Source: Candidatus Zixiibacteriota bacterium
GTDB taxonomy: Bacteria > Zixibacteria > MSB-5A5 > DG-27
Direction of reading: 5' to 3'
DNA: 64,000 bases
NCBI GenBank assembly: GCA_030605835.1
Contig: JAUWHO010000027.1
Coordinates: 149,664 to 213,663, forward strand
Shown here: in pieces, positions 4,767 to 26,649 of the stretch
Layout of the letters: the number at the start of each line of letters is the position of its first letter
Numbering within the stretch: position 1 is the stretch's first letter
The notes under the pieces: model-generated
What the model was told of the DNA's origin: nothing
The model's database searches: none
Seen by the model: only the letters and a program-made list of their open reading frames with translations
Position numbers and translations under genes: made by a program

Positions 4767-4788
4767 AGGAGTTCACCCAAAGCTAAGC

Positions 4789-6042
4789 CTACTCGTATCT
4801 CAGCGACTCCACCGGGTCGAGCTTGGAGGCTCTCAGGGAAGGGAAATAGCCGGATGCCACTCCCACGATCCCCAAAGCTACGGCGGTGAGCAGGGCTATC
4901 TCCGCGGAGATGACCGGTTTGCCCAGCCACTGCAGACCCTCCTCCTTCACCGGTATTTTCTCCAGGATTTTGGTAATAGTGAAAGAGGTGGTCATCCCCA
5001 TGGCGCCACCGAAGGCCGAAATGGCGATCGCCTCTAAAAGAAACTGCCACATGATGTAGCCCCTCCTGGCGCCTAAGGCCAGCTTGATTCCGATCTCCTT
5101 GGTGCGCCTTCTCACGGTCACATACATGATGTTTGCCACCCCCACTCCAGCGATCATGAGAGTCAATCCCCCCATTATCCCCAGAAAGACTTGGATCCCC
5201 AAAAGGATCTTGTCAAAAATCTTCCTTCCCTCGATGACATCCCAGAACCAGAGTGCTCTGTCATCTTCGGGGTCGAATTTATACTTCTTGCCAAGTACAC
5301 GAAAGACCTCCCTTTCAACGTGCTTCACCCTTTTCGGGTCTCTGGGTTGATAGACGATGTTGGAGAGATAGGGCCACCTCTGGGTATAGATTGCCTTAAA
5401 GGTGGTCGCCGGGATGGTGGCGGTGTTGACGTCAGGACCGTGGTACATTCCCATCTGCATCTTGTCGACCATCACCCCGATCACGGTGAAGGGGATATTG
5501 TCCAAAAGCAGGGTCTTGCCGACGGCCTCTTCCTGGCCAAACAATTTCTCCTTCAACTCGTGTCCCAAGAAGATCACCCTTCTTCTGTTCTTCATATCCA
5601 GCTCGTTTAGGAAGCGGCCTCCCTTTTGGGCGATGTGGGCTCGCATCTGTTCAAAGGAGGGATAGACCCCGGTGAGATGTTCGGAGATGGTCTTGTCTTT
5701 GTATTCCAAAGTTCTTCCCCAGCGGGAGTACTCTCCGCTGATTAACTCTATCTCGGGAATGCTCTTTTTCAATAGCTCTACATCTTCGTCCATGAAGCGG
5801 ATCTCCCGGCCGCGCCTGAGACCCTCATACGGTATGGTGGTCTCGCCTCCCCACAGGATGACGATGGGGCCTCCCAAGCCGCTGCGAGCCTTTCGGAGCT
5901 GCCGGGTCATCCCCTCCCCGAAGGCTAAAAGCATCACAATCGCCACCGTTCCCCAGGTCAAGGCCAGAACTGTGAGGGTGATCTTTTTCTTCTGCTTGGT
6001 GAAATCGCTTGCGAAGAGCTTGGCTAAAAGAAGAATCTTCAT
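4789..6042 (-). CDS. MacB/FtsX-family ABC transporter permease
   Basis: 417 aa; N-terminal TM, MacB periplasmic-core-like region, C-terminal 'VTVRRRTKEIGIKLALGARRGYI' and 'PSLRASKLDPVESLRYE'. Confidence 0.9.
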   Translation of the reverse strand: MKILLLAKLFASDFTKQKKKITLTVLALTWGTVAIVMLLAFGEGMTRQLRKARSGLGGPIVILWGGETTIPYEGLRRGREIRFMDEDVELLKKSIPEIELISGEYSRWGRTLEYKDKTISEHLTGVYPSFEQMRAHIAQKGGRFLNELDMKNRRRVIFLGHELKEKLFGQEEAVGKTLLLDNIPFTVIGVMVDKMQMGMYHGPDVNTATIPATTFKAIYTQRWPYLSNIVYQPRDPKRVKHVEREVFRVLGKKYKFDPEDDRALWFWDVIEGRKIFDKILLGIQVFLGIMGGLTLMIAGVGVANIMYVTVRRRTKEIGIKLALGARRGYIMWQFLLEAIAISAFGGAMGMTTSFTITKILEKIPVKEEGLQWLGKPVISAEIALLTAVALGIVGVASGYFPSLRASKLDPVESLRYE

Positions 6043-6050
6043 CTCTTACC

Positions 6051-7283
6051 TCAGGGTCTCAAGGCCTCCACCGGATTGAGATTGGCGGCCCGCCGAGCCG
6101 GGAAGAATCCTGAGAAAAGACCTATCAAGCCTAAGAGGCAGGTCACTGCCACCGCCACCATAACCGAGATCTCAGGGGTGCCAACATACTCCTCGGCCTT
6201 GAAAACCGGAAATACTTGGATGATGCCGTAGGAGATGATAAATCCTATTCCCCCCCCGATGAAGGTGATCACCAGGGTCTCGAAGATGAACTGCAAGAGG
6301 ACGAACCTCTTTTTGGCGCCCAGAGCCATCTTGATTCCGATCTCGCGGGTTCTCTCCTCCACCACCACATTCATGATGTTCGACACCCCGATTCCGCCGA
6401 CGATCAGAGTCAGAGCTCCTAGGATTCCCAGGAATAGCTGGAAACCCCCGAAGAAGGCGTTGAAGAAGGCCTCCATCTCGCTGGTGTCCCACATCGATAA
6501 AGCCTCGTCATCCTCCGGGTCGAACTTATATTTCTTCCCCAGCACCTCGTAAACTCTCTTTTTGACGTATTCGGTGAGGTGTGGAGATTCGGCTTTGAAG
6601 ACCATATTGTTCAAATACTTGGCCGGATACATGGAAGCGCAGGTGGTGTAAGGTATGAAGCCCTTGTTCTCATCTCTACCGCTGTAGCTGGAGTCCTGTG
6701 GCTTCTCCTTTAAGACCCCCACAATCGTGAAGGGGACCCGATCAACAAGGACGATCTTGCCGATGGCCTCCTCTTCCCCGAAGAGGTCCTCCTTGAGATC
6801 GTTGCCCAAAAATATCGCCCGCTCTTTATTCTCCATATCGAGGTGGTTTATGAATCTTCCCCCTCTATCGGCGACGATACTGCGCAAGAGCGCAAACTCT
6901 GGATTAGTCCCCACCACCTGGACCACGAACACCTTCTTGCCGTAACTGACGGCGGCGTTCCAGCGAGTCCTCTCCGGGCTTATGTAGGCGATCTGTTTTA
7001 TCTGGGAGCGCAAGAGCTCGGTATCCTCTTCCCGGAGACCGATCCGGCGCCCCTTGGGAAGACCCTGGAAGGTCTTGGCGGTTTTGCCTCCCCACATAAT
7101 AACGATGTATTCCCCCAAACCGTGCATCGCTTTCACCTGGGAACGGTATAAACCCTGGCCAAAGGCCAAAAGCAGAATTACCGCCGTTGTTCCCCAGACA
7201 ATCCCGAATATGGTCAGAAGGGTGCGCAGTTTCTGGGAGCGCATATCCCGGAAGATCTGTCTTAAGAAAAGCCAGAGGTGCAC
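6051..7283 (-). CDS. MacB/FtsX-family ABC transporter permease
   Basis: 410 aa; paralogous to the adjacent permease; 'VVEERTREIGIKMALGAKKRFVLLQF', 'PARRAANLNPVEALRP'. Confidence 0.9.
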   Translation of the reverse strand: MHLWLFLRQIFRDMRSQKLRTLLTIFGIVWGTTAVILLLAFGQGLYRSQVKAMHGLGEYIVIMWGGKTAKTFQGLPKGRRIGLREEDTELLRSQIKQIAYISPERTRWNAAVSYGKKVFVVQVVGTNPEFALLRSIVADRGGRFINHLDMENKERAIFLGNDLKEDLFGEEEAIGKIVLVDRVPFTIVGVLKEKPQDSSYSGRDENKGFIPYTTCASMYPAKYLNNMVFKAESPHLTEYVKKRVYEVLGKKYKFDPEDDEALSMWDTSEMEAFFNAFFGGFQLFLGILGALTLIVGGIGVSNIMNVVVEERTREIGIKMALGAKKRFVLLQFIFETLVITFIGGGIGFIISYGIIQVFPVFKAEEYVGTPEISVMVAVAVTCLLGLIGLFSGFFPARRAANLNPVEALRP

Positions 7284-8488
7284 TATTCTATCTCCCGCGG
7301 CGGACGTTCTACCAAGAGGGCTCCCTCCTCCAACCCGGAGGTGATCTCGACGTTAAGTCCGTCGGAGAGTCCGGTCTCAACATATACGGTGTCAATCTCC
7401 CCGAGCGAATCCTGAATCTCCACCCAGGCGGTGTCGCCTTTGAAATGTAGAAGTCTCTCCGGTGCTAAAAGGACATCTTTTTTCTCGTTTATCACCAGCT
7501 CGGCGTTGGCGGAATACCCCGCCCGCAGCATCTCCTCCCCCCTCTTGGTGATTTCGATTTCGACGTCGAAGACGGTGGTGTTCTCCTCCTCTCTGGCTTT
7601 GGGCGAAATCCGTTCAAGCACCCCCTCCACCGGTTCCCCCGGGAGGGCCCCAACCTTTATCTTCGCCGTCATCCCGGGATGCAGCTTGCCGACGTCGATC
7701 TCATCCACGGTTCCCTTGAAAAGCAGATCCGTCATCTCCGCTAAGATCAGAAGCTCCGTCCCGGCCTGAAAGGAGGTCAAGGGCACCACCGGATCCCCCT
7801 CGTTCACCATCTTCTCCAAGACAGTCCCGCTTATCGGGGAGCGAATCACGGAGCTTACGTTCTTGTCGGCTATGGTGGCGTGGCCATCCTGGATCAGGGA
7901 GAGTTTCTCCTCCGCCAACTTCAGACGCAGGCGGGTCTCATCGTAATCCTTGCGGGCATCGTCGTATTCCTTCTCGGAGATATGTTTCTTGTCTAAAAGC
8001 TCCTTTGCCCTTTCATAGTTCTTGAGGGCGTTTTCGTGTGACACCTCGGCGATCTCAGCCGACCGCTTGGCCTCCGCAAATTCGAGGGGGGTGGGGTCGG
8101 GGCTGATGTCGAGTAAGGGACTTCCAAATTTGACGCGGTCGCCGACCTCGACGAAGAGTTTCTTCACGATGCCGGAGATCTTGGACTTGACCGCAATCTC
8201 GTTTCTCGGTTCAATTCTGCCGATCGCCAAAGCTTTATCGACGATATCGCCTCGATCGAGCTTCACGGTGGTGATGCCATTCTCATCCCCCTTTCTGGAG
8301 GAGACGAAGAAGAATACCGCCACCGCAATTACACCTAACACGATCAGCGCGACAATTATCTTTTTGAACATATTGAACCTCGCTAGGGAATAGGACTGAG
8401 TTCTTTTAATTATGAATACGAATATACCAGGATTGGGTTTCAGGTTCAAGCTGGGCTGTGAATATTGACGCTGGTTTAGGGATTTCAT
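7283..8488 (-). CDS. Efflux periplasmic adaptor subunit (MacA/HlyD-like); true start probably internal at MFKKIIVALIV
   Basis: TM segment, lipoyl/biotinyl-like hairpin 'IVKKLFVEVGDRVKFGSPLLDISP', coiled coil, adjacent to ABC permeases. Confidence 0.88.
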   Translation of the reverse strand: MKSLNQRQYSQPSLNLKPNPGIFVFIIKRTQSYSLARFNMFKKIIVALIVLGVIAVAVFFFVSSRKGDENGITTVKLDRGDIVDKALAIGRIEPRNEIAVKSKISGIVKKLFVEVGDRVKFGSPLLDISPDPTPLEFAEAKRSAEIAEVSHENALKNYERAKELLDKKHISEKEYDDARKDYDETRLRLKLAEEKLSLIQDGHATIADKNVSSVIRSPISGTVLEKMVNEGDPVVPLTSFQAGTELLILAEMTDLLFKGTVDEIDVGKLHPGMTAKIKVGALPGEPVEGVLERISPKAREEENTTVFDVEIEITKRGEEMLRAGYSANAELVINEKKDVLLAPERLLHFKGDTAWVEIQDSLGEIDTVYVETGLSDGLNVEITSGLEEGALLVERPPREIE

Positions 8489-9248: not shown

Positions 9249-12200
9249 TCAAGGTTCTCCCAACAGATAATACCCTCCCCAGAAATTGGGATGGGGATTG
9301 TATGATTTCTCGATTTTCCCCTGAGCTACGCTCAGTGCAGGGGCAATCTCCTCGCCGCTCAGAAATGAACGATAGAATCTCTTCAAGAAGATCGCTCTCA
9401 CCATCAGTTCCGGAGACCACTGGGACAAAAGCGCCCTTTCACAATGGAAAGAGAGCAAAAGCCTCCAGAGCAATTCCACCTCTAAGCCATCTGAGCTTAA
9501 TAGAGGAGGGAGGTCGACATTCAGCCAACTGAAAATGTCACTCTCCATCGACAATCCCGCGAATTCGAGAAGGGCCATCTCAGAACCGGCGACATTGAAC
9601 CCGGACTCAAACGGCCTTTCGGGCTTGAATCTCCCGGGGGTGGCGAGGTGTAGGTATCTTCCCTGACCGAAAGCAGGCTCAAATTCGTGCAGCGCCGAAA
9701 TCCTGCTGACATCGTCATCGCCGAAAGTGAGCGATAGCCCCCGGCCCTCGTCAATCCCCAGGGGATTAGGTTTGGGATCTGCAAGGTATACCATCCTCTG
9801 CGAATAGGTCTCCTTCGAAGCAGGCTCCATCAGAAGATAACAGAGGGAAGGGAGATAGAGAAGCTCCCAGCGCTGACCGACATATTCGCCGGCTTGGTCG
9901 ATCAAAAGCCCGAACGGGAGATAGAATAAGCTTCCCCCGGGAATGATCGATAATCGCTTCTTGGAGGCGATCTCCGATTCTAACGGTTTGATCAAGAGGT
10001 TGTACAGTTCCTTCGCGGAGACCTCCACCTCCGACAGGGAGCGGATCTGTCCCCGGAAAAGTTCAATTTTTTCCTTCAACTCCTTCTCGGCAATCGGGAC
10101 TTGCAGGAGCCTAATGTCCTTCGTGGTGACACTCCAGCAGTATAAGATTTGCGGGGTGGAGAAATAATAGAGCAGGGCCGAATCCTCTCTTAGCTTCTCT
10201 CTGAGAACCTCCGGTGTTAGCCCGCCTCCCGAGAAAAAGAGAGCGAAGCCGGGATCGGTCGTCATCAGAGAATCGAAAAAGCTGTGATAGTTCGACGCCG
10301 CCACCTCGATTCTCTCCACCGCAGAGTCCAGACTCCCGGGGGATAAGTCTGTCAAGTCTCTGCCCGCAAGCAGCGAAGATAAAGCTCCTCTTTCCTGAAA
10401 GACCTTCTGCTTTAGGACCTGCAAGTGCTCAAAGGTGAGCCTGCAGTTCTCTTTTTGGAAATCTATCCTCCTCTGAGCCAGACGGTCGGCGAAGCTGCGA
10501 TTCCTCATGCGCTCCGCATACTCTATGGGCTCCATGGTCTTTCCGGATTCGACCAGAGTTGCCATCAAGGCTTGATAAAGATCGGAGCTGGTCTCAAGAT
10601 AGCCTCCCTTGTAGACCTCCAAGGGATCTTGCGGGAGTGATAGACTTATGACCTCGAAAGCCTTCCTGAAATAGTCCTCAGTCTTATCAAATCGCTTCCG
10701 TTTTCTCTCTATCTCTCCCAGCCTGAAATAGCTGCGCCATAAGATCTCGTCAAGCTTTATCCCCTCCGATAATTCCAGAGAGCGACCGAAGAGCTCCTGC
10801 GCCTCCTTTTCCTCTCCCCGGAGGAGGTTTGCCTGCCCCAGATTATAGATCAGCTTGACCTGCATCTCTAAGTTCTTCTCGGTTTCCGATTCCTTCAATG
10901 CCCTCCGGTAATAGACCGCCGCCGAATCCATCTCCCCCAACCCTTGATAGGCAAGCCCGATATTCCTCAAATCCAGAAGGATGGCGCTTTCATCTTGCAG
11001 TTCCCGGTCGAGATTATGGGCCAGCTTGTAATGAAGGAGGGATTCCTTAAAGTTTTTCTTCTGGTTGAAGAGGTTGCCGAGGTTGGTGAGAAAGGTGGCC
11101 TTATGGGAGGCCAATCCCAGGCTCTCCGCCAATGCCACCCCCCAGCGGTTGGTATTGAGGCTCCCTTGAGTGTCCCCGGTGTAACGTTCTATAAGAGCGC
11201 GGAGATTCAAGACCTCCAGCCGGCCGCGCTCATCCCCGAGCCGGCGATGGAGATCCCAACTAAGCTTTTGACAACTTCTGGCATTCTCGTAATCACCTGT
11301 ATGCCAGTAGATGGTGGCCAGGTATTGATAAGTGCGGGCAAGCTCCCGGGAGTCATCACCTCCGGATAGAAGTTCCAAAGCCCTCTGCTGGCAGCCCAAG
11401 GCCTGCTGAAAATTTCCCACCTTGGTGAGGGCAAAACCGAGAAGCTGAGAAGATTTCGCCTCCAGCTCCGCTTTTCTGTTCTGAGAGAGGCTCACCGCCG
11501 AGGATAGATTCTCCACCGCAAACTTGAAATCGCCGGAATTGATGTTTGTGCGACCCAGGAGGAGATAAGTCTCCGCCAGATTGAGACTGTCGTCAACAGA
11601 CTGAAAGAGGGCGGCGGCACTATCGGCCAATATCCTTGCGGCGTTGTAATCTCCGGAGAGGTCGGCGAAGTTGGCCTGGTTTCGCAGCGAGATCGCCTTT
11701 TGTTGCAACTGCCCCGGCCTTATCTTCCATTTTCTATATTCGCTCTCGTAGAGACTCGCCTTCTGGTAATCGCCGTCCTGGTAGCTAATCCTTCTCAAGC
11801 TCAGAAGTGATTTCTCCACCAGGTTTTTGTCCTCCGATTGGTAACCCATCTCCAGCAACTTCTCCTGCCACTTTGAAGCGTTCCTAAAATCGCCGCCGCG
11901 GAAGTAGGAAAGGACCAGGCCGTCTAAGAGCCTCTGGAGTTTGTCAGGAGGGAGTTGCAGTTGGTAGGCCAAGTTGAGAGCCCCGCGGTAGCTCTTAGCG
12001 GACAGAAGCCACTCTGCCCGGGAGGCATATCCCTGGGCTTTGGCGAGGAGCTTTCCCAGACTCTTGGAGGCGACGCTTCTTGCCTCTTTCGGATCCAAGC
12101 CTCCGAAGCCGATATTCTGAAAGGAGGCCCAGAAATGCGGTTGGGGGTATTTCTCCCGAAGGCGGAGTTGTGCCTCCCCCAAGGAGGAGCTGATATCATA

Positions 12201-15200
12201 CTTCTCCAATGCCTCATAGAAAAGCCTGAAGAACTCCCCGCGCACTTCCGGTTTGACCGCCCAGAGGCTGGTGACGATGGAAGGAATACCGGCATAGCCG
12301 AAGCTTGTGGCCAAAGTTAGATTCGCTCTCCCGGGGAGGTGATAATCGAACTCGAAATCATTGCCGCTGATTGAGAGTAAGCTCGCTTCCAGATCCCAGG
12401 AATAGATGTCGTGAAGATGAATGGTGTAGGTGGAATCGCCCTCCCCTGAATAGCTGAGTCTGGATTTGAGGGGGTAACCGAGATCGAAATCGAGTGCGCC
12501 GCAGAGGTGCAGCCTTCCGAAATCGCTGAGTTCCCGCCTCAAGTCCGGCGGCGGCGGGAGGGGCAAATTGATAGTGACCTCGGGAAGAGTCTCCTTCAAA
12601 GCGGCGACCTCTTCATCAGTCCCCGACAGAAGGGGCAATAGATACATCCCCCTCTGGTTGGGAGAGAGACGCTGGTAACTCTGATACAAGAGGTTCGCAG
12701 AAGGGGAGGTTGTGAGATTGAAAAGCTCAAATAGGTAGCCGTCAGAGGAGAGCAGGCTGGAGAAGGAGATGTAGCTCAAGTGCCGGTCGGGAACGATGGC
12801 CAGCTCGCTTTTGTCTCCAATGAATTCCTCAACTGGCTCAATGAGGAGAGAGTAGAGTTGTCGAGCCTGCCTTTGGATTTCAAGCTCGGTCTCCTCGGCA
12901 GGTGGTGACCTCAAAAGCTGATAATAGGTTTCGACCAATGTTGACAATGTCATGTCCTCTACGGGAACGAATCTGAAATAGAGCTCGGTGGAGGTGACAA
13001 CCCAGATTCCGAGGCCCTCAGATAGAACCGCGTAATTGATGAGCGCCACGTCATTGGAGAGAACCTGCTGGAGCTCCTCGATTGTTGCCGGTTCCACCAA
13101 AATCATGGAGCTTAGCTCTGGGCCTTCGTCCCTTATTTTAGCTTTCAGCTTTTCGAATTCGCTCTCCCACTCGGAGAGCTCCCCCTTCAAGGAGGCGAGC
13201 TTCTCGGGGTCGGCGGAGCTACCTTTAAGCTCCTCCCTTAGGATTCTACTTCCGGTTCTGTGAATCTGCGCCTGAAGATAGCGGGCATCGCGCAGGTAAA
13301 TCTTGTGCCGTTCTTTTTTGAGCTCCGCGAAGTCGTATGTTGCCAAAAGATCGATGATGAGTCTGGCCCTCTCTCTCTCTATAAGAGAGAAAGCTTCAGG
13401 ATAGTCGCCTCTTGAGATCTCAAATCTGATATAGTCCCGATAGAAACCGCTTTTCCTCTCCCACAGGGAGGGTCGTCCCAGGACTTCTTTCTGCTGTGTC
13501 GGAGAGTTCTCCAAGACCTCCAGGCCTCTAAGGAAGTGAGCCTCTACTGAATCTGTAGGGGAGTTCCGTTCCCATTCTACCAGTGCCAATGCCTGCTCCG
13601 ATTCCCATACGAGCGAACTGAGATAAAAGCGGGAACCGATCTGTAGCGATTCTGTAAGCTCAAGCTTGGCGGCATCGAATCTGCCCAGGAGGTGATGAAT
13701 AACCCCAAGGTTGTAAGAGATCTGCCCCACCGCGGGCCAGTATTTGAGTTCCTTGACCTGATTCAAAGCCTGAAGATAGTATCCCTCCGAGGTCAATAGC
13801 TCCTCTAGCCCGGGAGGTGAGCTGTCGAGAAATGATTTGAAATCCGCCTCCAGGTTCGGCCTCGACCCCGCTCTGATTTTGACAAGGGCTTTGAGATAGG
13901 TTAGCCCTCCCAAGTTTGCCAAAAGGAGAGGCCGGGGTCTGGAGAGACCTGAGCCCAACTCCTTCAGGGTCTGGTTCAGAATTGTCTCTATCTTTTCTGC
14001 TGGGTCCTCGAGCGAGGCGGTGGTCGAAGGTGGACTGTCAATTTCCCTCTGGAGCAGAAAAAGTCCCAGGTCGGAGTAGTTGAGGGCGTTTACGACCATG
14101 CCGGAGAGGAGCTTCGCCTTTTTTGCAACCTCCCAGGAAGTGAAGAAGTAGGTCAGGGAGGAGTCATACTCCCCTATCACAACATATTGGTAACCGAGAT
14201 TGTTGAGCACCACCGCTTCCAAACCACTCTCCTTTTCCTTCCGAACCCGGATCAGTTTCTCCTTTAGGGCTGCAATAGAACCGCAGAAATCCTGAGAGAG
14301 ATCTTCGGCGGCGCTCTCTATGCTGCTGGAGAGCCAGCCCTCCGCCGCCAGAGACAACCCCCGAGGGTAGAGGGAGCCACCAAGTTTGATCTCCTCCAGA
14401 CGAACGAAAGGAAGGTTGAAGCTGAAAAGGGGAGTCTTCACCTTGAGGGCATTCTCCTTTTTGAGGTCCTCACCCTTCGGAACCAGAAAGAAGAGCGAAT
14501 CGGCGATAGTAGTGTGCTCGATGGCTTTTTCGGTCTCCTCCAGCTTTTGATAATTGAAAGCGATCGCCTGGTGAAGGAGGGCGAGCTTCTTTATCGGTCC
14601 GGAGGTCTGGCGGTATTCCAATGCTCTCGAAAAGAACTCATTCGAGAGCTCAAATTCGCCCGCCAGATGGTAAACCAGACCTAACTGCTCGTAGATCTCC
14701 AATTTCAGCTCCGAATCCTGGAGCCCCTCAGCGGTCTCCAAAACTTCCTGGTAGCTTTTGGCGGAGAGGTCAAACCGATCGGTGTTCCGGGCGGCGTGGG
14801 CCAAATTCCTGACCACTGCTCTTCGAGTCTCCCGGTCGGGGAGGCGGGGATCGATTCTCAACTTCTCCAGATAGTGATGCAGCGCTAAAGGGTGTTGCTC
14901 GATCTGGAAGAAGCCCTCGGCGGCGTTTAAGTGCAGGTCGGCCTCCAGGGAGGGATTCTCAAGCTCGTCATTCAGGGTGATCCCCATGGTGGCCAGATCG
15001 ATGGTGGCCTCGTAGAGGCTCTCCTGTTCATCGGCCTCTCCGCGGGCTTGCAGCTGGCAATAGACCCATCCCAGGGTGAGATAGGCCTCGACGAAGCCGT
15101 AGTCGTTGGCCAAGACCTCCTCTAACTCCCGGCGGGCCGATTTCAGATCCGAGATTTTTCCTTTCTCTTGAAACTGAAAGGCCAGGGTCAATCCCAGACC

Positions 15201-17360
15201 GTAGCGGGCGACGTCATTGCCGGGCTCGTCTTTCAACTTCACTCGATAAGTTGTCTCACAACTCTTCAGATCTCCGGTGGCGGCACAACTCCTTATCCAT
15301 CCCCAGTGAGCCTTGATGTTATTGTAATTCTCGTTAATTATCTTCTCGAAGCTTCTTTGCGCCTCCAGGTAGTTGGAGTTGGAGAAGAGGGCTTCGGCCT
15401 CCGACAAGAGGGAGCCCGAGAGTTCTTTTTCCACTTGGTATCTCAGAGAGGCGCTCTCTATCTTCTCGAACTGCTGATATAACTCTGAAAGCAGTCTGGT
15501 AGCCTCTGGAACCTGAGAGAGGTTCAGGTGAAGTTTGGCCAGCTCGAATTTTGCGACCTGGAGGGTTTTCTCCTGTTCGGGATAGGAGTTGATCAGGCGC
15601 TGGTAAACGTCAACCCCGAGGGAGGGTCTTGCCTGCTCCACGAAAGTCCGTGCCATCTCCAGAAGGGTCAAGGCCGCCAGAGGTTTTCTCTCCCGATAGG
15701 AATAGAAGAGCTTATTTAAGGAGGCCAACTTCTTCTCGAAGTCTTGTTGCTCGAAAAGTCTGATGATGGTGGCCCGGGCTGAATCGGCCCACAGGGATCT
15801 TTCCTGGTAGCGGTCCACCACTGCGAGGTAGTCATCGACCTCCCCGAAGGGATCTCCAATCTCCGCCTGCAGGTGGGTTTCGACCCGTCGGAATTCGGCT
15901 TCAGCGGCGATGTCGACCTCTTCCGGGAAGAGGCTCGCCACCTCTCGGTATCTCCCCGCAGCTGCCTTTAGGTCTCCGTAGTCCCGGAGCCAATCCCCGC
16001 TGGCCTTAAGTGCGGCCGCCAGAACGGTGCCGTCATCGGAATAGGAATTTTTGATTCTCTTTAATCCAGTCAAAGCCTCCCGCAGGGACTTCCTTCTGTC
16101 TAAGTGCCAGAAGGATTCGGCGGTGGAGTTGACCAGTTGTATTTCACAAAACCCCGCTGAGGTTGTCTCCTCAGGATAGCATTCGATGGTTCTTCTCCAG
16201 ACCTCTTCGGCCCTCTTGGAGTAACCCAATCTCTTGTGAAGGTGCCCCAGTCTCAGTCCCGCTTGGGCACAGCTACTATCTTCGTCAGGAAAGAATCCGG
16301 CGACAGACTGGTAGGCCAGGATCGTCAGATAGGGAGCCTCTCTTCCGAGAAGGTTTTTCTCTGCCCACCGGGCCAGTTGCAGCTGTCTTCTTGCGCTTTG
16401 AGCCTTTGGGAAGACGCCCGCAGTCGGAACCGCGTAGAGGTCGAAGTTGCCGCCCTTGTTGGAGAGATAGAATACCTCACCTCCGGTGTAGGAGCAGGTC
16501 GGCATATACTCCCAGTGCTGGCTGAAGGTGAGTTGCTGGACAGTTTTGGTTTCCAGATTGATCCTGCAAATGTAAGGGGTATCCTCGGTGTTGAGCTCGC
16601 CGTCAGCGTTGGTGTCCATTCCAAATTTGGTGAAGACGATCCCCTCGCCACCGGGGAGAAAGCTGGGGAAGGCATCGACGCCGGGCCCGGTATCCAGAAT
16701 CGATACTGACCTGTCTGGGAGAGACAATAAAGATAGCCGGTTGTTTCTCTCCGGCTCCGGAGAGAGGGATATAAAGGCGATCTCCTCACCGTTCGGAGAC
16801 CAGCAGGGGTTGACGGCGCCCGCGGTGGTGAGAGGCCCGCTCAGTTCCCCCCCCAGGGTCATAAGCCACAGGTTCGACAGCCCGGTCTCGCGGTCGGATA
16901 GAAACAGAATGGTCTCCCCGTCGGGGGAGAATCTCGGTTGGTCGTCGTAACCTCTATAGGTGGTCAGGCGTTCCGGCTCTTTTGAACCCCTCTGTTGGAG
17001 ATAGATATCGCCGCGGGCATCGTCCCGTCGAGAGACGTATGCAATGGTTTTGTTGTCCGCCGATAAGGAGGCATGATAGTCGGCGGCGGTGTGATCGGTG
17101 ACCAAGGAGTCGACTCCGCCGGTGCTCGATTTTAAGAAGATGTCTTCGTTGCCGTTGCGGGCGGAGGTGAAGACTAGCCAGCTCCCATCGGGACTCACCG
17201 CCGGGTCGTAATCATCAGAGGGGTGAGTCGTCACCTGCCGGGGGATGAAGATCTCCCAAGCATCGGAACTTTGAGCCAGGGAGGGGAGGCCCAGAAGAAA
17301 AAGTAGAGAGATCGAGAAGACCTTGAGTTTATGAACCTCGAAGACTCCCGCAATTGGCAA
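9249..17360 (-). CDS. Secreted giant protein: TolB/WD40-like beta-propeller, TPR arrays, two CHAT-like domains with degenerate catalytic positions
   Basis: ORF track runs to 17501, but a TTG at 17358-17360, just after the upstream TGA and preceded by GGAAG, leads into signal peptide 'KLKVFSISLLFLLGLPSLAQS'. 'DPAVSPDGSWLVFTSARNGNEDIF' repeats, many TPRs, CHAT hallmarks 'IVTSLWAVKPEVRGEFFRLFYEAL...PHFWASFQNIGFGG' and 'YLHLATPGRF...PNFWGGYYLLGEP'. Confidence 0.85.
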   Translation of the reverse strand: MPIAGVFEVHKLKVFSISLLFLLGLPSLAQSSDAWEIFIPRQVTTHPSDDYDPAVSPDGSWLVFTSARNGNEDIFLKSSTGGVDSLVTDHTAADYHASLSADNKTIAYVSRRDDARGDIYLQQRGSKEPERLTTYRGYDDQPRFSPDGETILFLSDRETGLSNLWLMTLGGELSGPLTTAGAVNPCWSPNGEEIAFISLSPEPERNNRLSLLSLPDRSVSILDTGPGVDAFPSFLPGGEGIVFTKFGMDTNADGELNTEDTPYICRINLETKTVQQLTFSQHWEYMPTCSYTGGEVFYLSNKGGNFDLYAVPTAGVFPKAQSARRQLQLARWAEKNLLGREAPYLTILAYQSVAGFFPDEDSSCAQAGLRLGHLHKRLGYSKRAEEVWRRTIECYPEETTSAGFCEIQLVNSTAESFWHLDRRKSLREALTGLKRIKNSYSDDGTVLAAALKASGDWLRDYGDLKAAAGRYREVASLFPEEVDIAAEAEFRRVETHLQAEIGDPFGEVDDYLAVVDRYQERSLWADSARATIIRLFEQQDFEKKLASLNKLFYSYRERKPLAALTLLEMARTFVEQARPSLGVDVYQRLINSYPEQEKTLQVAKFELAKLHLNLSQVPEATRLLSELYQQFEKIESASLRYQVEKELSGSLLSEAEALFSNSNYLEAQRSFEKIINENYNNIKAHWGWIRSCAATGDLKSCETTYRVKLKDEPGNDVARYGLGLTLAFQFQEKGKISDLKSARRELEEVLANDYGFVEAYLTLGWVYCQLQARGEADEQESLYEATIDLATMGITLNDELENPSLEADLHLNAAEGFFQIEQHPLALHHYLEKLRIDPRLPDRETRRAVVRNLAHAARNTDRFDLSAKSYQEVLETAEGLQDSELKLEIYEQLGLVYHLAGEFELSNEFFSRALEYRQTSGPIKKLALLHQAIAFNYQKLEETEKAIEHTTIADSLFFLVPKGEDLKKENALKVKTPLFSFNLPFVRLEEIKLGGSLYPRGLSLAAEGWLSSSIESAAEDLSQDFCGSIAALKEKLIRVRKEKESGLEAVVLNNLGYQYVVIGEYDSSLTYFFTSWEVAKKAKLLSGMVVNALNYSDLGLFLLQREIDSPPSTTASLEDPAEKIETILNQTLKELGSGLSRPRPLLLANLGGLTYLKALVKIRAGSRPNLEADFKSFLDSSPPGLEELLTSEGYYLQALNQVKELKYWPAVGQISYNLGVIHHLLGRFDAAKLELTESLQIGSRFYLSSLVWESEQALALVEWERNSPTDSVEAHFLRGLEVLENSPTQQKEVLGRPSLWERKSGFYRDYIRFEISRGDYPEAFSLIERERARLIIDLLATYDFAELKKERHKIYLRDARYLQAQIHRTGSRILREELKGSSADPEKLASLKGELSEWESEFEKLKAKIRDEGPELSSMILVEPATIEELQQVLSNDVALINYAVLSEGLGIWVVTSTELYFRFVPVEDMTLSTLVETYYQLLRSPPAEETELEIQRQARQLYSLLIEPVEEFIGDKSELAIVPDRHLSYISFSSLLSSDGYLFELFNLTTSPSANLLYQSYQRLSPNQRGMYLLPLLSGTDEEVAALKETLPEVTINLPLPPPPDLRRELSDFGRLHLCGALDFDLGYPLKSRLSYSGEGDSTYTIHLHDIYSWDLEASLLSISGNDFEFDYHLPGRANLTLATSFGYAGIPSIVTSLWAVKPEVRGEFFRLFYEALEKYDISSSLGEAQLRLREKYPQPHFWASFQNIGFGGLDPKEARSVASKSLGKLLAKAQGYASRAEWLLSAKSYRGALNLAYQLQLPPDKLQRLLDGLVLSYFRGGDFRNASKWQEKLLEMGYQSEDKNLVEKSLLSLRRISYQDGDYQKASLYESEYRKWKIRPGQLQQKAISLRNQANFADLSGDYNAARILADSAAALFQSVDDSLNLAETYLLLGRTNINSGDFKFAVENLSSAVSLSQNRKAELEAKSSQLLGFALTKVGNFQQALGCQQRALELLSGGDDSRELARTYQYLATIYWHTGDYENARSCQKLSWDLHRRLGDERGRLEVLNLRALIERYTGDTQGSLNTNRWGVALAESLGLASHKATFLTNLGNLFNQKKNFKESLLHYKLAHNLDRELQDESAILLDLRNIGLAYQGLGEMDSAAVYYRRALKESETEKNLEMQVKLIYNLGQANLLRGEEKEAQELFGRSLELSEGIKLDEILWRSYFRLGEIERKRKRFDKTEDYFRKAFEVISLSLPQDPLEVYKGGYLETSSDLYQALMATLVESGKTMEPIEYAERMRNRSFADRLAQRRIDFQKENCRLTFEHLQVLKQKVFQERGALSSLLAGRDLTDLSPGSLDSAVERIEVAASNYHSFFDSLMTTDPGFALFFSGGGLTPEVLREKLREDSALLYYFSTPQILYCWSVTTKDIRLLQVPIAEKELKEKIELFRGQIRSLSEVEVSAKELYNLLIKPLESEIASKKRLSIIPGGSLFYLPFGLLIDQAGEYVGQRWELLYLPSLCYLLMEPASKETYSQRMVYLADPKPNPLGIDEGRGLSLTFGDDDVSRISALHEFEPAFGQGRYLHLATPGRFKPERPFESGFNVAGSEMALLEFAGLSMESDIFSWLNVDLPPLLSSDGLEVELLWRLLLSFHCERALLSQWSPELMVRAIFLKRFYRSFLSGEEIAPALSVAQGKIEKSYNPHPNFWGGYYLLGEP

Positions 17361-17362
17361 GG

Positions 17363-17989
17363 TCACTTCCGTTTCCAGCTCCCGTCTTGGTCCTGGATGA
17401 GCTCCCCGGGCTTGGCCGATTCCCGATTGCGCTGGGCGAAGGAGGCTTCCACCTGGGGCAGATCCTCCTCGGTTAGATCGTGCCGCAGGCTTATATACCA
17501 CTCCACGAGAACTCTTCTGCTCTGGTTCTCCTCAGAGACTACCCCGTGAACAAGAACCGCCAGGGTGGAGTCTGCTCTCAGTTTGGCCGAATCGACCACC
17601 TCCAGATAGCCGCGGCTGTTCTCCCCGACTATCCCCTGCCGCTTGAAGTCATCAACATCGTCGCTGTTGAAAATCCTGGAGGCCTCCGCCCGGAGGTAGC
17701 GCAACCTCTCGGGGGAGTAGCTTCTCACGAGAGTTGTTTCCGCCTCACCGAAGATTGACCTCTGGAGGCTGTCGGATTCAGTCGGGGGCACCAGGGAGCT
17801 GGTGCTCACCGCTCCAATTGACCAGATCTCCTCCGGCAGCTTCTTGTGTTCCCCCAGAAGCTGTCTCTCCAGGGCGGTCTTCTCCCCGGTTATGGTGACC
17901 TCCGGAGGCTTTATGCTGCAAGAGAGAGCGAGAACTATCGAGAGTAGAAGCAGTAAAGAACCGTTGTTGTAGTAATATCTTTTCGACAT
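17363..17989 (-). CDS. Lipoprotein, DUF1318 (YdbL)-like
   Basis: Lipobox 'VLALSC'; 'RQGIVGENSRGYLEV...VVSEENQSRRVLVEWYI' resembles the DUF1318 core. Confidence 0.6.
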   Translation of the reverse strand: MSKRYYYNNGSLLLLLSIVLALSCSIKPPEVTITGEKTALERQLLGEHKKLPEEIWSIGAVSTSSLVPPTESDSLQRSIFGEAETTLVRSYSPERLRYLRAEASRIFNSDDVDDFKRQGIVGENSRGYLEVVDSAKLRADSTLAVLVHGVVSEENQSRRVLVEWYISLRHDLTEEDLPQVEASFAQRNRESAKPGELIQDQDGSWKRK

Positions 17990-17999
17990 TTTGCCTCCT

Positions 18000-20900
18000 T
18001 TAATATTCCTCCTCCTTCTCAGCGCCCATTTGAGAGAGAACCACGGAGAGGGGTATGCGATCGTAACGAATCGGCATCGGCAGGCGGATGAGCTGCTTTA
18101 TGAACGGCACCGGGGCATAAACGTCGGCGTGAAGGGAGGGGTAGATGTTGCCGTGCCTGACCGAACAGGAAAACCATCGGGGTCGAAATCTTATGGGGAT
18201 TATGCCAATGACTTTGAACTTCTGATCTAAGAAAGTCTTGGTCATCTCGAGGCTGGGGTCGGTCCCTTCCGGATCCAGAAAATCGAAGATGCGGCTCAAC
18301 ACCTCGGCGCTCACCTGGGTGATGTCGAGCTCCGCCTCCAGCTCCCCGCCGGGGAGGAGGCCCCGACCTCGCAAGTAGATATCTCCGGTAAGGCTTTTCT
18401 CCGCAGTTATGATCTTCTCTTTAAGCCCGGTCATCTCCGAGAAGTTGACGCTGGAGAATTGCAGGTAGGCGCGATACTCCACCTCCTCCAAGTTCAGCTC
18501 CCTCCCCCCCAGCTTCAAAGATTTCAAGTCCACCAGCAGGTTGCCGTAGAGGTTGCCGTCATAGAGGTTGCCCACCAGCCGGGGTATGTGTAGGGCGCTG
18601 TTGCCGAAAGTGACGTCCATCTCTAAGTTCTGGGCGCTGAAGCGCATGGCGGTGATCCTATCGATCTTGAAGTTGGAGATGTTTTCGCCTCTTTGGAGGT
18701 TGTATGCTCTCAGCCGTTCGTAGTTGAAAGGACTGGAGGCATAGAGGGCGCTGACTTCCTTGGTCTCCTGAACTAAAGACATATCTCGAAGGTCGAGCTT
18801 CTGGTGAAAGGGGATGTGTCCGTTCATATTTTCGATGGATACCAGAGGCGGCATCTCCAGATTCAGGTATTGAAAATCGGCGCTGCCATAAAGGGTGACT
18901 AAAGAATCCCTCATGCTCAAGTTCATCCGGAGGCTCAATCCCCCTTTGGCCTTCATCTCTCCGAAGAGGGTCATCTCCTCGGCCGAACGGAAATCGAAGC
19001 TGCCCGCCAACCTCAACTTCGGGGAGCTGCTCAAGTCCGACACCATCCCGTTTAGCGCCAGACCGAATTTGAGGGAGAGACAATCGAACTGAAGGTTCTC
19101 TAAGAATAGACTCATCTCGGTCGGGGCAGGCTCATCCCCCCGGGGCAGGTTCGTCACGGAGGCTTTCAGGGAGAGAAAGCAATCGCTAATGGGGTTGACG
19201 AGGTAGTTGTAGTTCTCAATCCAGTCTAAGCGGAACAGACCTTCGAGCTCGACGCGGTCTCCCTGGAAGGCTAAGATGAGCTCTCCTCCCAATCCCCGCA
19301 GTTCGGTTTCGAATGCCGGCAGTATCATCCCGAAGTCAGTCAGCTCTAAGATGGTGTTGATGTCAATCTGGGTGCGACTGGAAGCCGGCAGTCGGCCCCG
19401 GATTGTGGTTTTTATCTCCGTCTCCCCGGCAAACTGCAGTCCCCCCAGGGAGCGATTCAACTCTAACGGCAGGAAATCCGACAAACGATTGTGCTTAATC
19501 TTGGCCTCCAGGTTGGCTGTCAAGGAATCGCGACCGAAGTTGTAAAGACCTCCAGAGGCAGAAAGATCTAAAAGACCGGTGCTGGTCAGATCCAGATGGA
19601 CAAGCTCAATACGGGAGAGGTCCTCCTCAAGGGAAAGCTTAGCGTTCCCTGAAAACTTCAACGGCTCCAGGATCATACTGTCCCCCCCCAGATGATATTT
19701 GAGGGAGTCTGTGAACAGGCTGAAGGCACAAACGATGTCGCCAAAATCTGCCGCTGAGAAATCAAGCTTAAGACCTCCAGAACCTATGACTGGAGACTGG
19801 GGAAGTTGATCAAACTGTATCTGCTCAAGGGAGGCAGTACCTGACAAAACCGGGCCCGGAAGTCGTGAGGTTGCACTGATGGATGCTCTGCCTCCGAAGA
19901 TTTCGTTTACGGCCGCCTCGAAAGTGGCTTCCTTCACCCTCGGCATTTGCCTCTCTAAGCTGTCAAGTTCAACTCCGAATCGCCCGCCGATGCCAGCAAC
20001 GGTTATCGTGAGGAAATCATCCAGGGGATAGTTTACCTCTTTCAGCGAGAAACTCCCGTCGAGTTTAACTTCAATATCAGAGCTCGACAGGGCTATTCCG
20101 GCTTCAAGCTTGGCTTGAAAGTCCAGACGGTCGATCGCCAGACCGGTGGTGCTATCCTGGGCGCAGACATTTCTCAGACCGAAGGTTACACCGGCGTTGA
20201 TTTTTTCTTCGTTACCTTCAGCCCAGATATTCTCCCAGTAAGTTTCACCTTCGATGCGGAGGGCGGGGAGGAATTCGTGTATAACATGCGAGAAGTTACC
20301 CAAATTCAAGCCGTTCGATCTGGAGGCAAACCGAAACTGAGGTTGAGCTACTAGCGAAGTCAAAGTGACCTCAGCCTGCAGCAGTCTGTTTTCGTTCAGC
20401 TCGAAATAGATCTCTTCGAGCTGCAGCGAATCTGCACCCATGTCATATACGTATTTCAATCCCGCGCTCAGGGACAGGGCTGGAAAGGTCCTCCCGAAGT
20501 AGATCTCTGAGTCCTTCAAGCTGAACTCCACCTCTCCAGCGGAAGGCACTTCCGAACTTATCTGCCCGGAAAGAGTGAATGTGAGGTTGCTGGAGATTTT
20601 CAATTCCGGAGCGGTTGAGACGGAGCTTATTGATAGATTCTTACGATCTTGCGGCGAGATTTGAAAACGGGCTTTCAAAGAGAAATCCTCGGGCGAGCGG
20701 AAGAAGAGCGATTCAATGTCGAGATTGATTCCAGAGAGTTCGAGCTCCCCCGGTCCGGAGAGGTGGACGGAGGCCTGCTTCAACTCTAAGTTCCTCAGAA
20801 CAAGGAGGAGCAGCAATTCCGATTCGGCTCTCTCCGAAGCAGCGGGCGATTCCCGCTTTTTCGGTTGCACCAGGTCGGAGAAGTTCCAGAGGGTGTCGGA

Positions 20901-21275
20901 TAGCTGCCGGAGGTAAATCTCCGGTTCATGGATGATTATCGTCTCAATCTCCAGTTGTTTCTTTAACAGAGATAGCAGGCGGTATTTCAGCTTCAGGCGC
21001 TTCAGGCGGAGAAAGACGTTTCCGCCGCAGTCCGGGGGATCGTGAATCTGCAAGCCTTTCAGCCGGACCCCGGAGAGAATGGAGATATCGAGAGAATCAA
21101 TTTGAATCAGACGATTGAGCTTCTGAGAGAGAGTTTCGGTGGCGATCTGTTTGATCTTGTGGTCAGTGAAGTAAAGCGTCCTCAAGCCGATGGCGACGAT
21201 GAGTGCCAGCACAAACAGAGAGAGAATCAGAATGAGAAATATCTTGGAGATTCTTTTGAGGTTTACCTTTCGCAA
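18000..21275 (-). CDS. AsmA-like / YdbH-like intermembrane bridge protein
   Basis: 1091 aa, N-terminal TM 'IFLILILSLFVLALIVAIGL', beta-rich AsmA-like body ('DISILSGVRLKGLQIHDP', 'LSGDIYLRGRGLLPGGELEAELDITQVSAEVLSRIFDFLDPEG'); next to the DUF1318 gene. Confidence 0.65.
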   Translation of the reverse strand: MRKVNLKRISKIFLILILSLFVLALIVAIGLRTLYFTDHKIKQIATETLSQKLNRLIQIDSLDISILSGVRLKGLQIHDPPDCGGNVFLRLKRLKLKYRLLSLLKKQLEIETIIIHEPEIYLRQLSDTLWNFSDLVQPKKRESPAASERAESELLLLLVLRNLELKQASVHLSGPGELELSGINLDIESLFFRSPEDFSLKARFQISPQDRKNLSISSVSTAPELKISSNLTFTLSGQISSEVPSAGEVEFSLKDSEIYFGRTFPALSLSAGLKYVYDMGADSLQLEEIYFELNENRLLQAEVTLTSLVAQPQFRFASRSNGLNLGNFSHVIHEFLPALRIEGETYWENIWAEGNEEKINAGVTFGLRNVCAQDSTTGLAIDRLDFQAKLEAGIALSSSDIEVKLDGSFSLKEVNYPLDDFLTITVAGIGGRFGVELDSLERQMPRVKEATFEAAVNEIFGGRASISATSRLPGPVLSGTASLEQIQFDQLPQSPVIGSGGLKLDFSAADFGDIVCAFSLFTDSLKYHLGGDSMILEPLKFSGNAKLSLEEDLSRIELVHLDLTSTGLLDLSASGGLYNFGRDSLTANLEAKIKHNRLSDFLPLELNRSLGGLQFAGETEIKTTIRGRLPASSRTQIDINTILELTDFGMILPAFETELRGLGGELILAFQGDRVELEGLFRLDWIENYNYLVNPISDCFLSLKASVTNLPRGDEPAPTEMSLFLENLQFDCLSLKFGLALNGMVSDLSSSPKLRLAGSFDFRSAEEMTLFGEMKAKGGLSLRMNLSMRDSLVTLYGSADFQYLNLEMPPLVSIENMNGHIPFHQKLDLRDMSLVQETKEVSALYASSPFNYERLRAYNLQRGENISNFKIDRITAMRFSAQNLEMDVTFGNSALHIPRLVGNLYDGNLYGNLLVDLKSLKLGGRELNLEEVEYRAYLQFSSVNFSEMTGLKEKIITAEKSLTGDIYLRGRGLLPGGELEAELDITQVSAEVLSRIFDFLDPEGTDPSLEMTKTFLDQKFKVIGIIPIRFRPRWFSCSVRHGNIYPSLHADVYAPVPFIKQLIRLPMPIRYDRIPLSVVLSQMGAEKEEEY

Positions 21276-21426: not shown

Positions 21427-21702
21427 TTACCTCTTCACAGCTTCTTTCAGGGCTTTGCCCGGGCGGAACTTGGCGACCCTGCTGGCCGGAATCTTGATGG
21501 CCTGTCCGGTCTGCGGGTTTCTTCCCATGCGAGCCTTTCTGCGTGTAACCTCGAATGTCCCGAAACCGACGAAGGAGACTTTCTGTCCCTTCTTAAGGGA
21601 GCGGGTCACTCCGTCCAGAATGGAGCTTAAGGCTCTTGTGGCTTGGGCCTTGGTGACGTTGGCCTCTTTAGCACACTTGGCAATCAGTTCCTCTTTTGTC
21701 AC
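21427..21702 (-). CDS. hup: HU-family DNA-binding protein
   Basis: 'MTKEELIAKCAKEANVTKAQA...FGTFEVTRRKARMGRNPQTGQAIKIPASRVAKFRPGKALKEAV' is canonical HU. Confidence 0.97.
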   Translation of the reverse strand: MTKEELIAKCAKEANVTKAQATRALSSILDGVTRSLKKGQKVSFVGFGTFEVTRRKARMGRNPQTGQAIKIPASRVAKFRPGKALKEAVKR

Positions 21703-21888: not shown

Positions 21889-24800
21889 CTATCGCAGGTG
21901 ACCTCCCTTGATGCCCCCCTCGCTTTTCTCGATTTTCACCTCCGGGATGGCTCTGATGTTGATGCGGATGTAGTATCCGCGGCGCACCCCGGTGGGAATC
22001 CAGTAGAACTGAAACTCCCAGCAGTGAAGGTCGCGGTGCACCTGGAACTGTTGCTCCACGATTCTTTTTGCCTCCACGTTGTAACGACTGGTGTATGCCA
22101 CCCTCCATTTGGTGGTGGGGGAAAGCTCTCCGCTTAAGTCAAACCAGCGGGTGATCGATCTAGTCACTCCGGCTCGGCTTTCGCTGTAGCGATGGGAGAG
22201 CCTCAGATTCCAGGAGAGGCCTTTCACACCTCCTCTCTCCCTTTCCGGTCCGAAGACCGCCTCCGCACCCGCCACCGGAAGTTCCTCTCTAGGTCCGCGT
22301 AGCTCCATTTCTTCTCTCCCCCTCAAAGATATTGTGGTGGAGGCGCTGAAGCTCAAAAGCCGGGGACGAAGCAACCTCAGCTCATCGCTGTCTTTTGGAT
22401 AGAAGCTGTGAGTGGCACCGATAGTTATCTCGATATTGGGTAAGGCTCGGGAGCGGACGCTAGATCTGAGATTCCCCCACTTGCGGGCCTGTGCCAAATA
22501 ATCGTAGCTGGTGGAGAAGTTGGCGCTAAACAGATCCGTCTTTCTCTCCTGGCCTCCGGTTTCGGTCTTCATCTGGAAGAGGTTGGCAAGCGAAAGTGAC
22601 AGGCGTTTCACTTTGGAGGTGGAGACCCCTTTGCCGGTGTAGGTTTTGTATTCGCTCCCCTTCTTGTACTCCGGTTGCCAGCTGTAGCTCACCGAGGGGG
22701 TCATCACGTGCCTCAAGGCTCGCAGGGGCCCCAACTTCATGCTGAAAGTCCCGTAGAGGTCGGTCTTGGCCGCCAGCGAAAAGCGATAGCTCCCCCTGCG
22801 GATAAACTCCTCGGTCTTGAGATTACGGTTTTCGCTGTCGTTGGTGGGCAGGATGTAATACCAGGTCTCCTGATAGCTGAGATTCGGAGTCAGGGTGAGG
22901 TAGTTGCCCAGGCTCTGAGGGCTGGAGATTCTCAAGTGATGGTCGGCCACCTGATACCTCCTCCAGAGAAAGATGTCGCCGGACTTGCGCTTGGAAAAAT
23001 AGTTCACACCCGAAGAGCTGAGGGAGTAATAGATAGAGTGATACCACCTCTTCGGTCTCTCTTCGTCCTTTTTTGTCGGTTGCCGGTAGGGGATTAAAGG
23101 TCGTTGCAGCTTTGTGAAAGTCACCGAGGGGAGTTTCTGAGTTCGGGTCTCGGTGTCTAAGTTCCAGCTCTGGTCCAAGGCCAAAGTCAGGTTTGCTCCC
23201 TCCCACCTCTTGCTGAGCGAAAGCTGGGAGTGGAGGCTGCGGTTGCGGATCTCCTCCGGATTGTAGCTGACGTCCTCGTAGTAGCTTTTATCGCTGATGA
23301 AATTTCCGCTGCCGGATAGCTTCATGGTGGGGGTGATATCCTGACTGTGCGCCATCCGGAGGCTCCAGCGCTTCCTTTTGCGGCGTTGAAGATCTTGCCA
23401 GCGAGACTCATAGACATAAGAACCGGACACGCTCCCCGCCAGTTTGTAACGCACCGCATAGCGTCCGTCGAGGTTGAAGGAAAGATGAGACTTCTCGTAG
23501 AAATCCATACTCCCCTGAAGATCCCAGTATTCCGAGGCCGCCCAGTAGTATCCCAAGTTTCTTATGAAACGTTCCCCCACCTCGAAATTTCCCAGCTCGA
23601 AGGTGGTGAATCCGGAGTGCCGACCTCTTTTGATGGGGAAGACATAGTAGGGGATGGCGGCCACCGGTAAATCCCCGATATACAGTATCACCGGCCGGGC
23701 GATGACCTTATCGCGGTGAATGACCTTCATCCTCTTGCCGTAAAAATGAAAGTGAGGTTCATCTAAGTCGCAGGAGGTGAACTCCCCCTCCTTGACGTAG
23801 AGGATCTCATTGGTGATCTTGCTGATCTGTTCCCCGTGGTAGAAGCCCCCCTCGAACTCGGTGTCCCCGGCCTTGATCTTCCCCCTCTTGGTCTCGATAT
23901 TGTAGACCATCTCCAGTCCGACGATTTCATCGGTCCCCTCCGTCAGGACCGGTGCATTCTTGACCACCTCTTCCCCCTCTTCCTCCTCCAGGCTCCCCCG
24001 GGCCTTCAAGAGTTTGGCGGAGGTGTTGTAGGTGATAAAATCCGCGGTCAGAGACATCTGCTTATGCTTCAGCCGGGAATTGGTCTTCAAGGTGATGGTG
24101 CTGTCGTCGAAAGTGTAAAGGATCTCGGAGGCAGAATAATAGACGGTATCGAGCGGCTGCGCCTGGAGGGTATCCGATACGGTTCTCTCTTTCGGCGCAA
24201 AGTAAGTTCCCCGAGCTCCACCGATGACCTCCACCTTCTGGGCCTTCCCCTCCGAGAGATAGAGGTTTAAGGTATCGCCGGAGACCTCGTTTTTGCCGGT
24301 TTTGCTCGAGTCCTTCGGGGCGGGCTGATAGAAACTTCTGGCGTTGCCCAGAGCCTGGACTTTTTTGACCTCCTCATCTTCTAAGAAGAAATCTATCCTC
24401 TGGCCGGTGAGGTAGCTCTCAGCGAAATCGGTCCTGGCCGAATCGGTCGGCTCCCAGCGGGTGGCTCTGGGGTTTCCGGTAACGATGACCTGACGCACCT
24501 CTTCCTCTTCGATGACAATCTCCATTCTCTCCCCGGTGAGCTGGTTGTCCTCCTGCCATGCCACCGGGGATTGGCTCAAAACGATCCTATCCTCTGTGGC
24601 GAAGAGCTCCGCATGACCGCAGTCGGCTTTCAATTTACCTCTTGCGATGGTGACCGAATCGATCGCCACCGCCCTTTTCTCCCCGGTGTAGTATTCCAGC
24701 CTCAGAGCGTCGACGGTCAAGCTTTCCGGGGAGTGGGCCTTGAAGACGGCGCGGGGTGAGATGGTGGCAACGACGAGTTTCTTCTTGCGGTCGTATTCGG

Positions 24801-25197
24801 CATAGCCGGAGGTTATGATCGTCTCCTCTTCGGGATCGACGGCGACCACATTCCCTCTGGCCATCGCTTTTTTGATTCTCTTGATATAGGTCAAGCGGTC
24901 ACAGGTTAATATCTGCTCTTCGTCCTGAAGCTCGGCGTTCCCCTGCACCACCACCTGGCCGGCAGTCTTATACCAGACCGCCCGGTCGCCCTTCAAGGTG
25001 GCCTCACCCTGTCGAAGCAGGACGCTGTCGGTCAGAACGATAATGGTATTCTCAGGGTCGTTGTTGAACTCCAATGAGCCGGCGTGCAGAAGCTCGATCG
25101 GCTCCTCCTCACTCTTCTGAGCCTGGGCCAGCGGTGAAGCCAAGAGTGTCAGAAGCAAAAGGAGAAAGGGAGGTGACATTTTTGCTTTGAGAAACAT
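21889..25197 (-). CDS. lptD: LptD/OstA-like LPS-assembly outer membrane protein
   Basis: Signal peptide, OstA/LptA-like repeats, 'PVAAIPYYVFPIKRGRHSGFTTFELG' and long C-terminal beta-barrel. Confidence 0.8.
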   Translation of the reverse strand: MFLKAKMSPPFLLLLLTLLASPLAQAQKSEEEPIELLHAGSLEFNNDPENTIIVLTDSVLLRQGEATLKGDRAVWYKTAGQVVVQGNAELQDEEQILTCDRLTYIKRIKKAMARGNVVAVDPEEETIITSGYAEYDRKKKLVVATISPRAVFKAHSPESLTVDALRLEYYTGEKRAVAIDSVTIARGKLKADCGHAELFATEDRIVLSQSPVAWQEDNQLTGERMEIVIEEEEVRQVIVTGNPRATRWEPTDSARTDFAESYLTGQRIDFFLEDEEVKKVQALGNARSFYQPAPKDSSKTGKNEVSGDTLNLYLSEGKAQKVEVIGGARGTYFAPKERTVSDTLQAQPLDTVYYSASEILYTFDDSTITLKTNSRLKHKQMSLTADFITYNTSAKLLKARGSLEEEEGEEVVKNAPVLTEGTDEIVGLEMVYNIETKRGKIKAGDTEFEGGFYHGEQISKITNEILYVKEGEFTSCDLDEPHFHFYGKRMKVIHRDKVIARPVILYIGDLPVAAIPYYVFPIKRGRHSGFTTFELGNFEVGERFIRNLGYYWAASEYWDLQGSMDFYEKSHLSFNLDGRYAVRYKLAGSVSGSYVYESRWQDLQRRKRKRWSLRMAHSQDITPTMKLSGSGNFISDKSYYEDVSYNPEEIRNRSLHSQLSLSKRWEGANLTLALDQSWNLDTETRTQKLPSVTFTKLQRPLIPYRQPTKKDEERPKRWYHSIYYSLSSSGVNYFSKRKSGDIFLWRRYQVADHHLRISSPQSLGNYLTLTPNLSYQETWYYILPTNDSENRNLKTEEFIRRGSYRFSLAAKTDLYGTFSMKLGPLRALRHVMTPSVSYSWQPEYKKGSEYKTYTGKGVSTSKVKRLSLSLANLFQMKTETGGQERKTDLFSANFSTSYDYLAQARKWGNLRSSVRSRALPNIEITIGATHSFYPKDSDELRLLRPRLLSFSASTTISLRGREEMELRGPREELPVAGAEAVFGPERERGGVKGLSWNLRLSHRYSESRAGVTRSITRWFDLSGELSPTTKWRVAYTSRYNVEAKRIVEQQFQVHRDLHCWEFQFYWIPTGVRRGYYIRINIRAIPEVKIEKSEGGIKGGHLR

Positions 25198-26548: not shown

Positions 26549-26649
26549 GTCGACCCCCACAGAATCTTTCTGGGTTTCACTCTCCAGAAGAGTGATTGAG
26601 TGTTTGGAACTATTGCCAATCGAATTTGGCTAGCAGGAGAATTAGGAAA

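Follow-up and report, generated by a model that had tools for sequence, protein, structure and literature searches.

The locus and the giant protein

The window analysed here, by which we mean a whole stretch of 64,000 nucleotides from a Candidatus Zixiibacteriota bacterium, carries on its minus strand the gene of a giant protein of 2,703 aa (9249..17360), supported by an open reading frame, by Pfam matches and by eight further orthologues. The frame (9249-17501, minus strand) is intact and runs without an internal stop. Its start, a TTG at 17360 judged by eye, is plausible because the upstream gene ends just ahead of it and a signal-peptide-like N-terminus follows. This probable signal peptide (residues ~1-32, ...LKVFSISLLFLLGLPSLAQS; 17265..17360, minus strand) was likewise read by eye, and hydrophobic leaders also open the orthologues of the giant. 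The protein is probably exported, and its N-terminus together with the gene context suggests a location in the envelope.

Behind the leader lies a TolB-like PD40 propeller (residues ~36-330; 16371..17255, minus strand), identified by PF07676 (5e-27 in the Pfam search), by a partial match to TIGR02800 and by the sequences of TolB structures. It is followed, all on the same strand, by TPR region A (residues ~331-1390; 13191..16370; Pfam TPR models), within which the family motif EEIKLGGSLYPRG is situated, by CHAT-1 (residues 1395-1756, with the Pfam match at 1496-1751; 12093..13178), by TPR region B (residues ~1757-2319; 10404..12092; TPR_12 and MalT-type TPR), and by CHAT-2 (residues 2448-2702; 9255..10019). 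Scored separately against PF12770, the two CHAT domains reach 99.0 and 76.2 bits, both above the cut-off of 24, and the architecture of propeller, TPRs and two CHAT domains that the first-pass annotation had read from the letters is thereby borne out. The CHAT domains also retain the C-terminal SLW/SQW ... HxxFW features, as had been claimed. CHAT-1 and CHAT-2 are 27% identical (E 3e-17) and the TPR+CHAT unit of the first half aligns with the second half over 609 residues, which identifies the second half as an internal duplicate.

The gene of the giant comes third in a cassette that begins with an AsmA-like protein of 1,091 aa (18000..21275, minus strand; PF05170 4.5e-18, DUF748) and continues with a DUF1318 (YdbL-type) lipoprotein (17363..17989, minus strand), which is above the PF07027 cut-off (1e-14) and opens with a lipobox-like N-terminus (LALSCSIKPPEVTITGEKTALE...). 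This lipobox-like stretch (CSIKPPEVTITGEKT) is conserved and resembles YnbE by eye only; in Pfam the protein had no match to a YnbE family. Outside the cassette, on its upstream flank, lie an HU-like DNA-binding protein recognised by pattern scan as an HU-type sequence (21427..21702, minus strand) and the conserved neighbour LptD (21889..25197, minus strand; PF19838 1e-77). Elsewhere in the window we observed a 615-aa PEPCK_ATP homologue (1812-3656, plus strand), the match of which is limited to profile positions 76-358 of 465, as well as two proteins (26596-28770 and 29221-30756, plus strand), the first of them subtilase-like, which both end in Por_Secre_tail, a type IX secretion sorting tail.

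Catalytic dyad and fold of the CHAT domains

The catalytic sites were located in an alignment of 12 CHAT copies, i.e. those of the window protein and of five orthologues (six genomes), with 15 CHAT domains of the class; the latter were picked by a pattern requiring the His/Cys motif and hence mark the columns only, being uninformative on the frequency of the motif. The catalytic-His site of CHAT-1 reads LHLCGALDFD (12483..12512, minus strand), with His replaced by Ala, and that of CHAT-2 reads LHLATPGRF (9627..9653, minus strand), with His replaced by Pro, both as stated in the first-pass annotation. The corresponding Cys sites, LLSISGNDF (12354..12380, minus strand) and FSWLNVDLPP (9504..9533, minus strand), are both devoid of Cys. 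For CHAT-2, where the Cys column holds Leu, this agrees with the earlier reading, while the Cys-to-Ser replacement proposed for CHAT-1 depends on the register: pairing LSAC with SISG gives Ser, whereas pairing LSGC with ISGN gives the Asn of our alignment, which appears equally or more likely.

Comparison among the orthologues, one of the checks that had been suggested, extends this picture well beyond a single gene. At the His column the six CHAT-1 copies show A, G, G, P, G and D and the six CHAT-2 copies P, I, I, E, S and E (window protein first in each case), so that none of the 12 copies has His there, and the Cys column holds Cys in just one of the 12, a stray residue in a CHAT-2 that lacks the His. 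Similarly, three orthologues of family f10 have no dyad in a whole-protein alignment. The other CHAT protein of the same genome (L001), by contrast, has an intact dyad (LHLATHG ... LSACQ). Since the dyad is intact there and absent across the orthologues, its loss from the giant is not a matter of chance, and these alignments show that the canonical dyad has been lost family-wide and not in one gene alone.

Structure models add support only, as the AF2 models were built from 6-row alignments and are of low confidence (mean pLDDT 53.5 for CHAT-1 and 52.4 for CHAT-2). For CHAT-1, 15 of the 17 Foldseek matches with E <= 0.001 are titled TPR-CHAT/Csx29 complexes, and separase and TPR-CHAT match the better part of the model with Z ~11 over 113-144 residues, mainly in its first half. 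The Foldseek matches of CHAT-2 are weak and yielded no separase/TPR-CHAT result like that of CHAT-1. The claim that both folds are retained is thus partly supported, by the resemblance of the best part of the CHAT-1 model to separase/TPR-CHAT, the models being otherwise of low confidence. Searched as a profile against PDB sequences, CHAT-1 matched only aldehyde dehydrogenase, weakly and over ~55 positions, which was dismissed as chance. Chains of the ciliary central-pair C1 apparatus (7sqc R0/R1, 7n6g 1N) also match the pseudo-CHAT models (window 9255-13178); to judge by these models, such a C1 chain may represent a further structural giant of CHAT-like fold.

Distribution and the conserved cassette

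Of the 132 genomes of the phylum covered by a profile search, nine carry the giant. Full-length orthologues (~2,400-2,700 aa) are present in eight further genomes of the Candidatus Zixibacteria class, and identity among the nine giants falls to 17%. When genome contigs were queried with an alignment, five loci from Candidatus Zixibacteria/Zixiibacteriota were retrieved; a single-protein pattern scan of genome contigs matched nothing, the viral contigs scanned held no relative of the giant, and the plasmid search returned partial CHAT/TPR matches only. In the FtsK tree the nine bearers fall together with five genomes lacking the giant into a single group of 14 (support 78/88), on which the presence of the giant requires three changes, e.g. 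one gain and two losses.

The first-pass annotation had also proposed looking at the conservation of the neighbours, and this revealed a cassette of three genes in the same nine genomes. The DUF1318 protein was found in 9 of 129 genomes, identical to the nine of the giant, and of 58 relatives these nine alone have long AsmA matches, the remainder matching only in part, mostly over the first 130-260 residues. This co-occurrence represents a single lineage with few losses within it, and the nine cases should not be counted as independent of one another. Five close relatives that lack the giant (G025, G053, G031, G037 and G043) gave no match to the AsmA-like protein, are missing from the DUF1318 matches (129 of 132 genomes covered) and have unrelated genes upstream of FtsK where readable.

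In six of the nine bearers the giant stands directly before FtsK, followed by LolA and RimO (with an extra gene between the last two in G057). In the window, where LptD and HU precede the cassette, and in G003 and G027, FtsK is located elsewhere and the cassette is not beside FtsK-LolA. Most of the cassette-lacking genomes examined read LptD-FtsK-LolA-RimO, LptD mostly about adjoining FtsK and an HU-like gene lying between them in seven loci (pattern scan); the LptD-FtsK order is broken in some, e.g. G008, G009 and G024. On the downstream side of the giant the window carries HlyD-type, two MacB-type and one ABC ATPase genes (4077-8488, minus strand), at the position taken by FtsK-LolA in six other bearers.

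One bearer, G048, seems at first to be a counterexample, with most of the giant separated from AsmA-DUF1318. There the first 133 aa of the giant adjoin DUF1318 and end near a run of 100 N, while the rest adjoins FtsK and starts at another such run (L069 12034-12133 and L146 14119-14218), the two parts being 2.6 Mb apart. With 100-N runs at both breaks the split is best taken as a gap problem, probably a scaffolding error, the rival reading being a true rearrangement.

Possible function and likeness to known systems

The non-proteolytic role suggested at first sight, 'scaffolding or sensing', was a guess that fits the loss of the dyad, and of its two halves the conserved three-gene cassette favours scaffolding, within a system of the AsmA-type lipid-bridge kind. 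We consider the chances about even that the giant is a non-proteolytic periplasmic scaffold of such a bridge. It would then work without CHAT proteolysis, its propeller, two TPR solenoids and two dead CHATs together serving in the periplasm as a scaffold to which the AsmA-like protein and the DUF1318 lipoprotein bind. The former could provide a lipid groove from the inner to the outer membrane, as is thought for E. coli YdbH, YhdP and TamB, and the latter could dock it at the outer membrane, combining the part played by YnbE as lipoprotein anchor with that of YdbL. Holding, spacing or gating this bridge might fall to the giant, with the dead CHATs retained as binding modules. More tentatively, and with the balance of probability somewhat against it, the cassette may represent an undescribed trans-envelope lipid-transport machine of Zixibacteria, in which a giant with two repurposed dead caspase-like domains serves as scaffold to an AsmA-type bridge and its outer-membrane lipoprotein.

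Sensing would give the same domains another use: the dead CHAT and TPR domains would bind a ligand or a damaged envelope component and signal, with no bridge involved. TPR-CHAT proteins are regulated effectors in the CRISPR-associated Craspase (PMC10028731, PMC9729208), which lends some substance to this idea, as does a lower-ranked fold match to the transmembrane anti-sigma factor DdvA (8rw5, Z 6.1, tied with unrelated rows). We nevertheless regard an envelope sensor as unlikely, there being no kinase, anti-sigma or receiver gene among the conserved neighbours (LptD, HU, AsmA, DUF1318, FtsK, LolA, RimO). Much more improbable still is a persisting hydrolase in which other residues took over catalysis in one or both CHATs; loss of the canonical dyad alone does not prove inactivity, but the lists of invariant columns contain neither a His nor a Cys among the aligned CHAT-1 or CHAT-2 copies.

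The CHAT domains might also be decaying passengers of a protein that functions through its propeller and TPRs only. Several comparisons show them changing more quickly than the propeller; by domain, identity within family f3 is lowest in CHAT-2 (27%) and highest in the propeller (53%). Moreover, the CHAT-1 region of f10 is barely recognisable, and CHAT-2 reached the threshold used in three of six copies. Against decay stand the C-terminal CHAT-2 region, which is truncated in no orthologue, and the close genomes L068 and L069, in which CHAT-2 (70% identity) is on a par with TPR-A (71%). We judge passenger status to be as improbable as the sensor, and prefer the scaffold.

The reuse of dead protease folds as binding modules is known elsewhere. 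For a CHAT pair reused in this manner, no account was found in the open-licence literature on Zixibacteria with CHAT. With the cassette, AsmA-type lipid bridges gain a candidate partner that can be put to the test; the further factors of their functional complexes have been stated to be unclear (PMC12977461).

Among known systems, the giant shares with CHAT, TPR-CHAT (Csx29, Craspase) and separase proteins the CHAT profile and the TPRs ahead of each CHAT. It differs from TPR-CHAT and separase in having no His/Cys dyad and in combining two CHATs in one exported-looking protein and, unlike the TPR-CHAT of Craspase, has no CRISPR genes among its conserved neighbours.

The cassette itself parallels the order of ydbH-ynbE-ydbL in E. 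coli (AsmA-type protein, lipoprotein, DUF1318), a locus that encodes an AsmA-type intermembrane phospholipid bridge. YdbH, YhdP and TamB are redundant in maintaining the lipid homeostasis of the outer membrane (PMC8593681), and phospholipid is moved to the outer membrane by YnbE together with YdbH (PMC11784454). Taken together, the literature groups YdbH with YhdP and TamB in this homeostasis and describes YnbE as the outer-membrane lipoprotein partner of YdbH (PMC8593681, PMC11784454, PMC12045153). The DUF1318 part is 28% identical to E. coli YdbL over the aligned part; lipoprotein and DUF1318 are fused in one protein in the cassette but separate (YnbE and YdbL) in E. coli, and nothing in the E. 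coli locus corresponds to the giant. The AsmA-like protein showed no profile similarity to YdbH (hhalign probability 0.1%), matching AsmA and DUF748 instead, and one of its orthologues has a sub-threshold YdbH-like match. On these sequence comparisons the relationship is one of system likeness, not of membership, because the kinship between the AsmA-like protein and YdbH is not demonstrable beyond the AsmA group.

Finally, the PD40 propeller resembles the C-terminal propeller of TolB, but the giant differs from TolB in that the NCBIfam equivalog cut-off is not reached (155.8 bits against 343.15; TIGR02800) and in that TPR and CHAT make up most of the protein.
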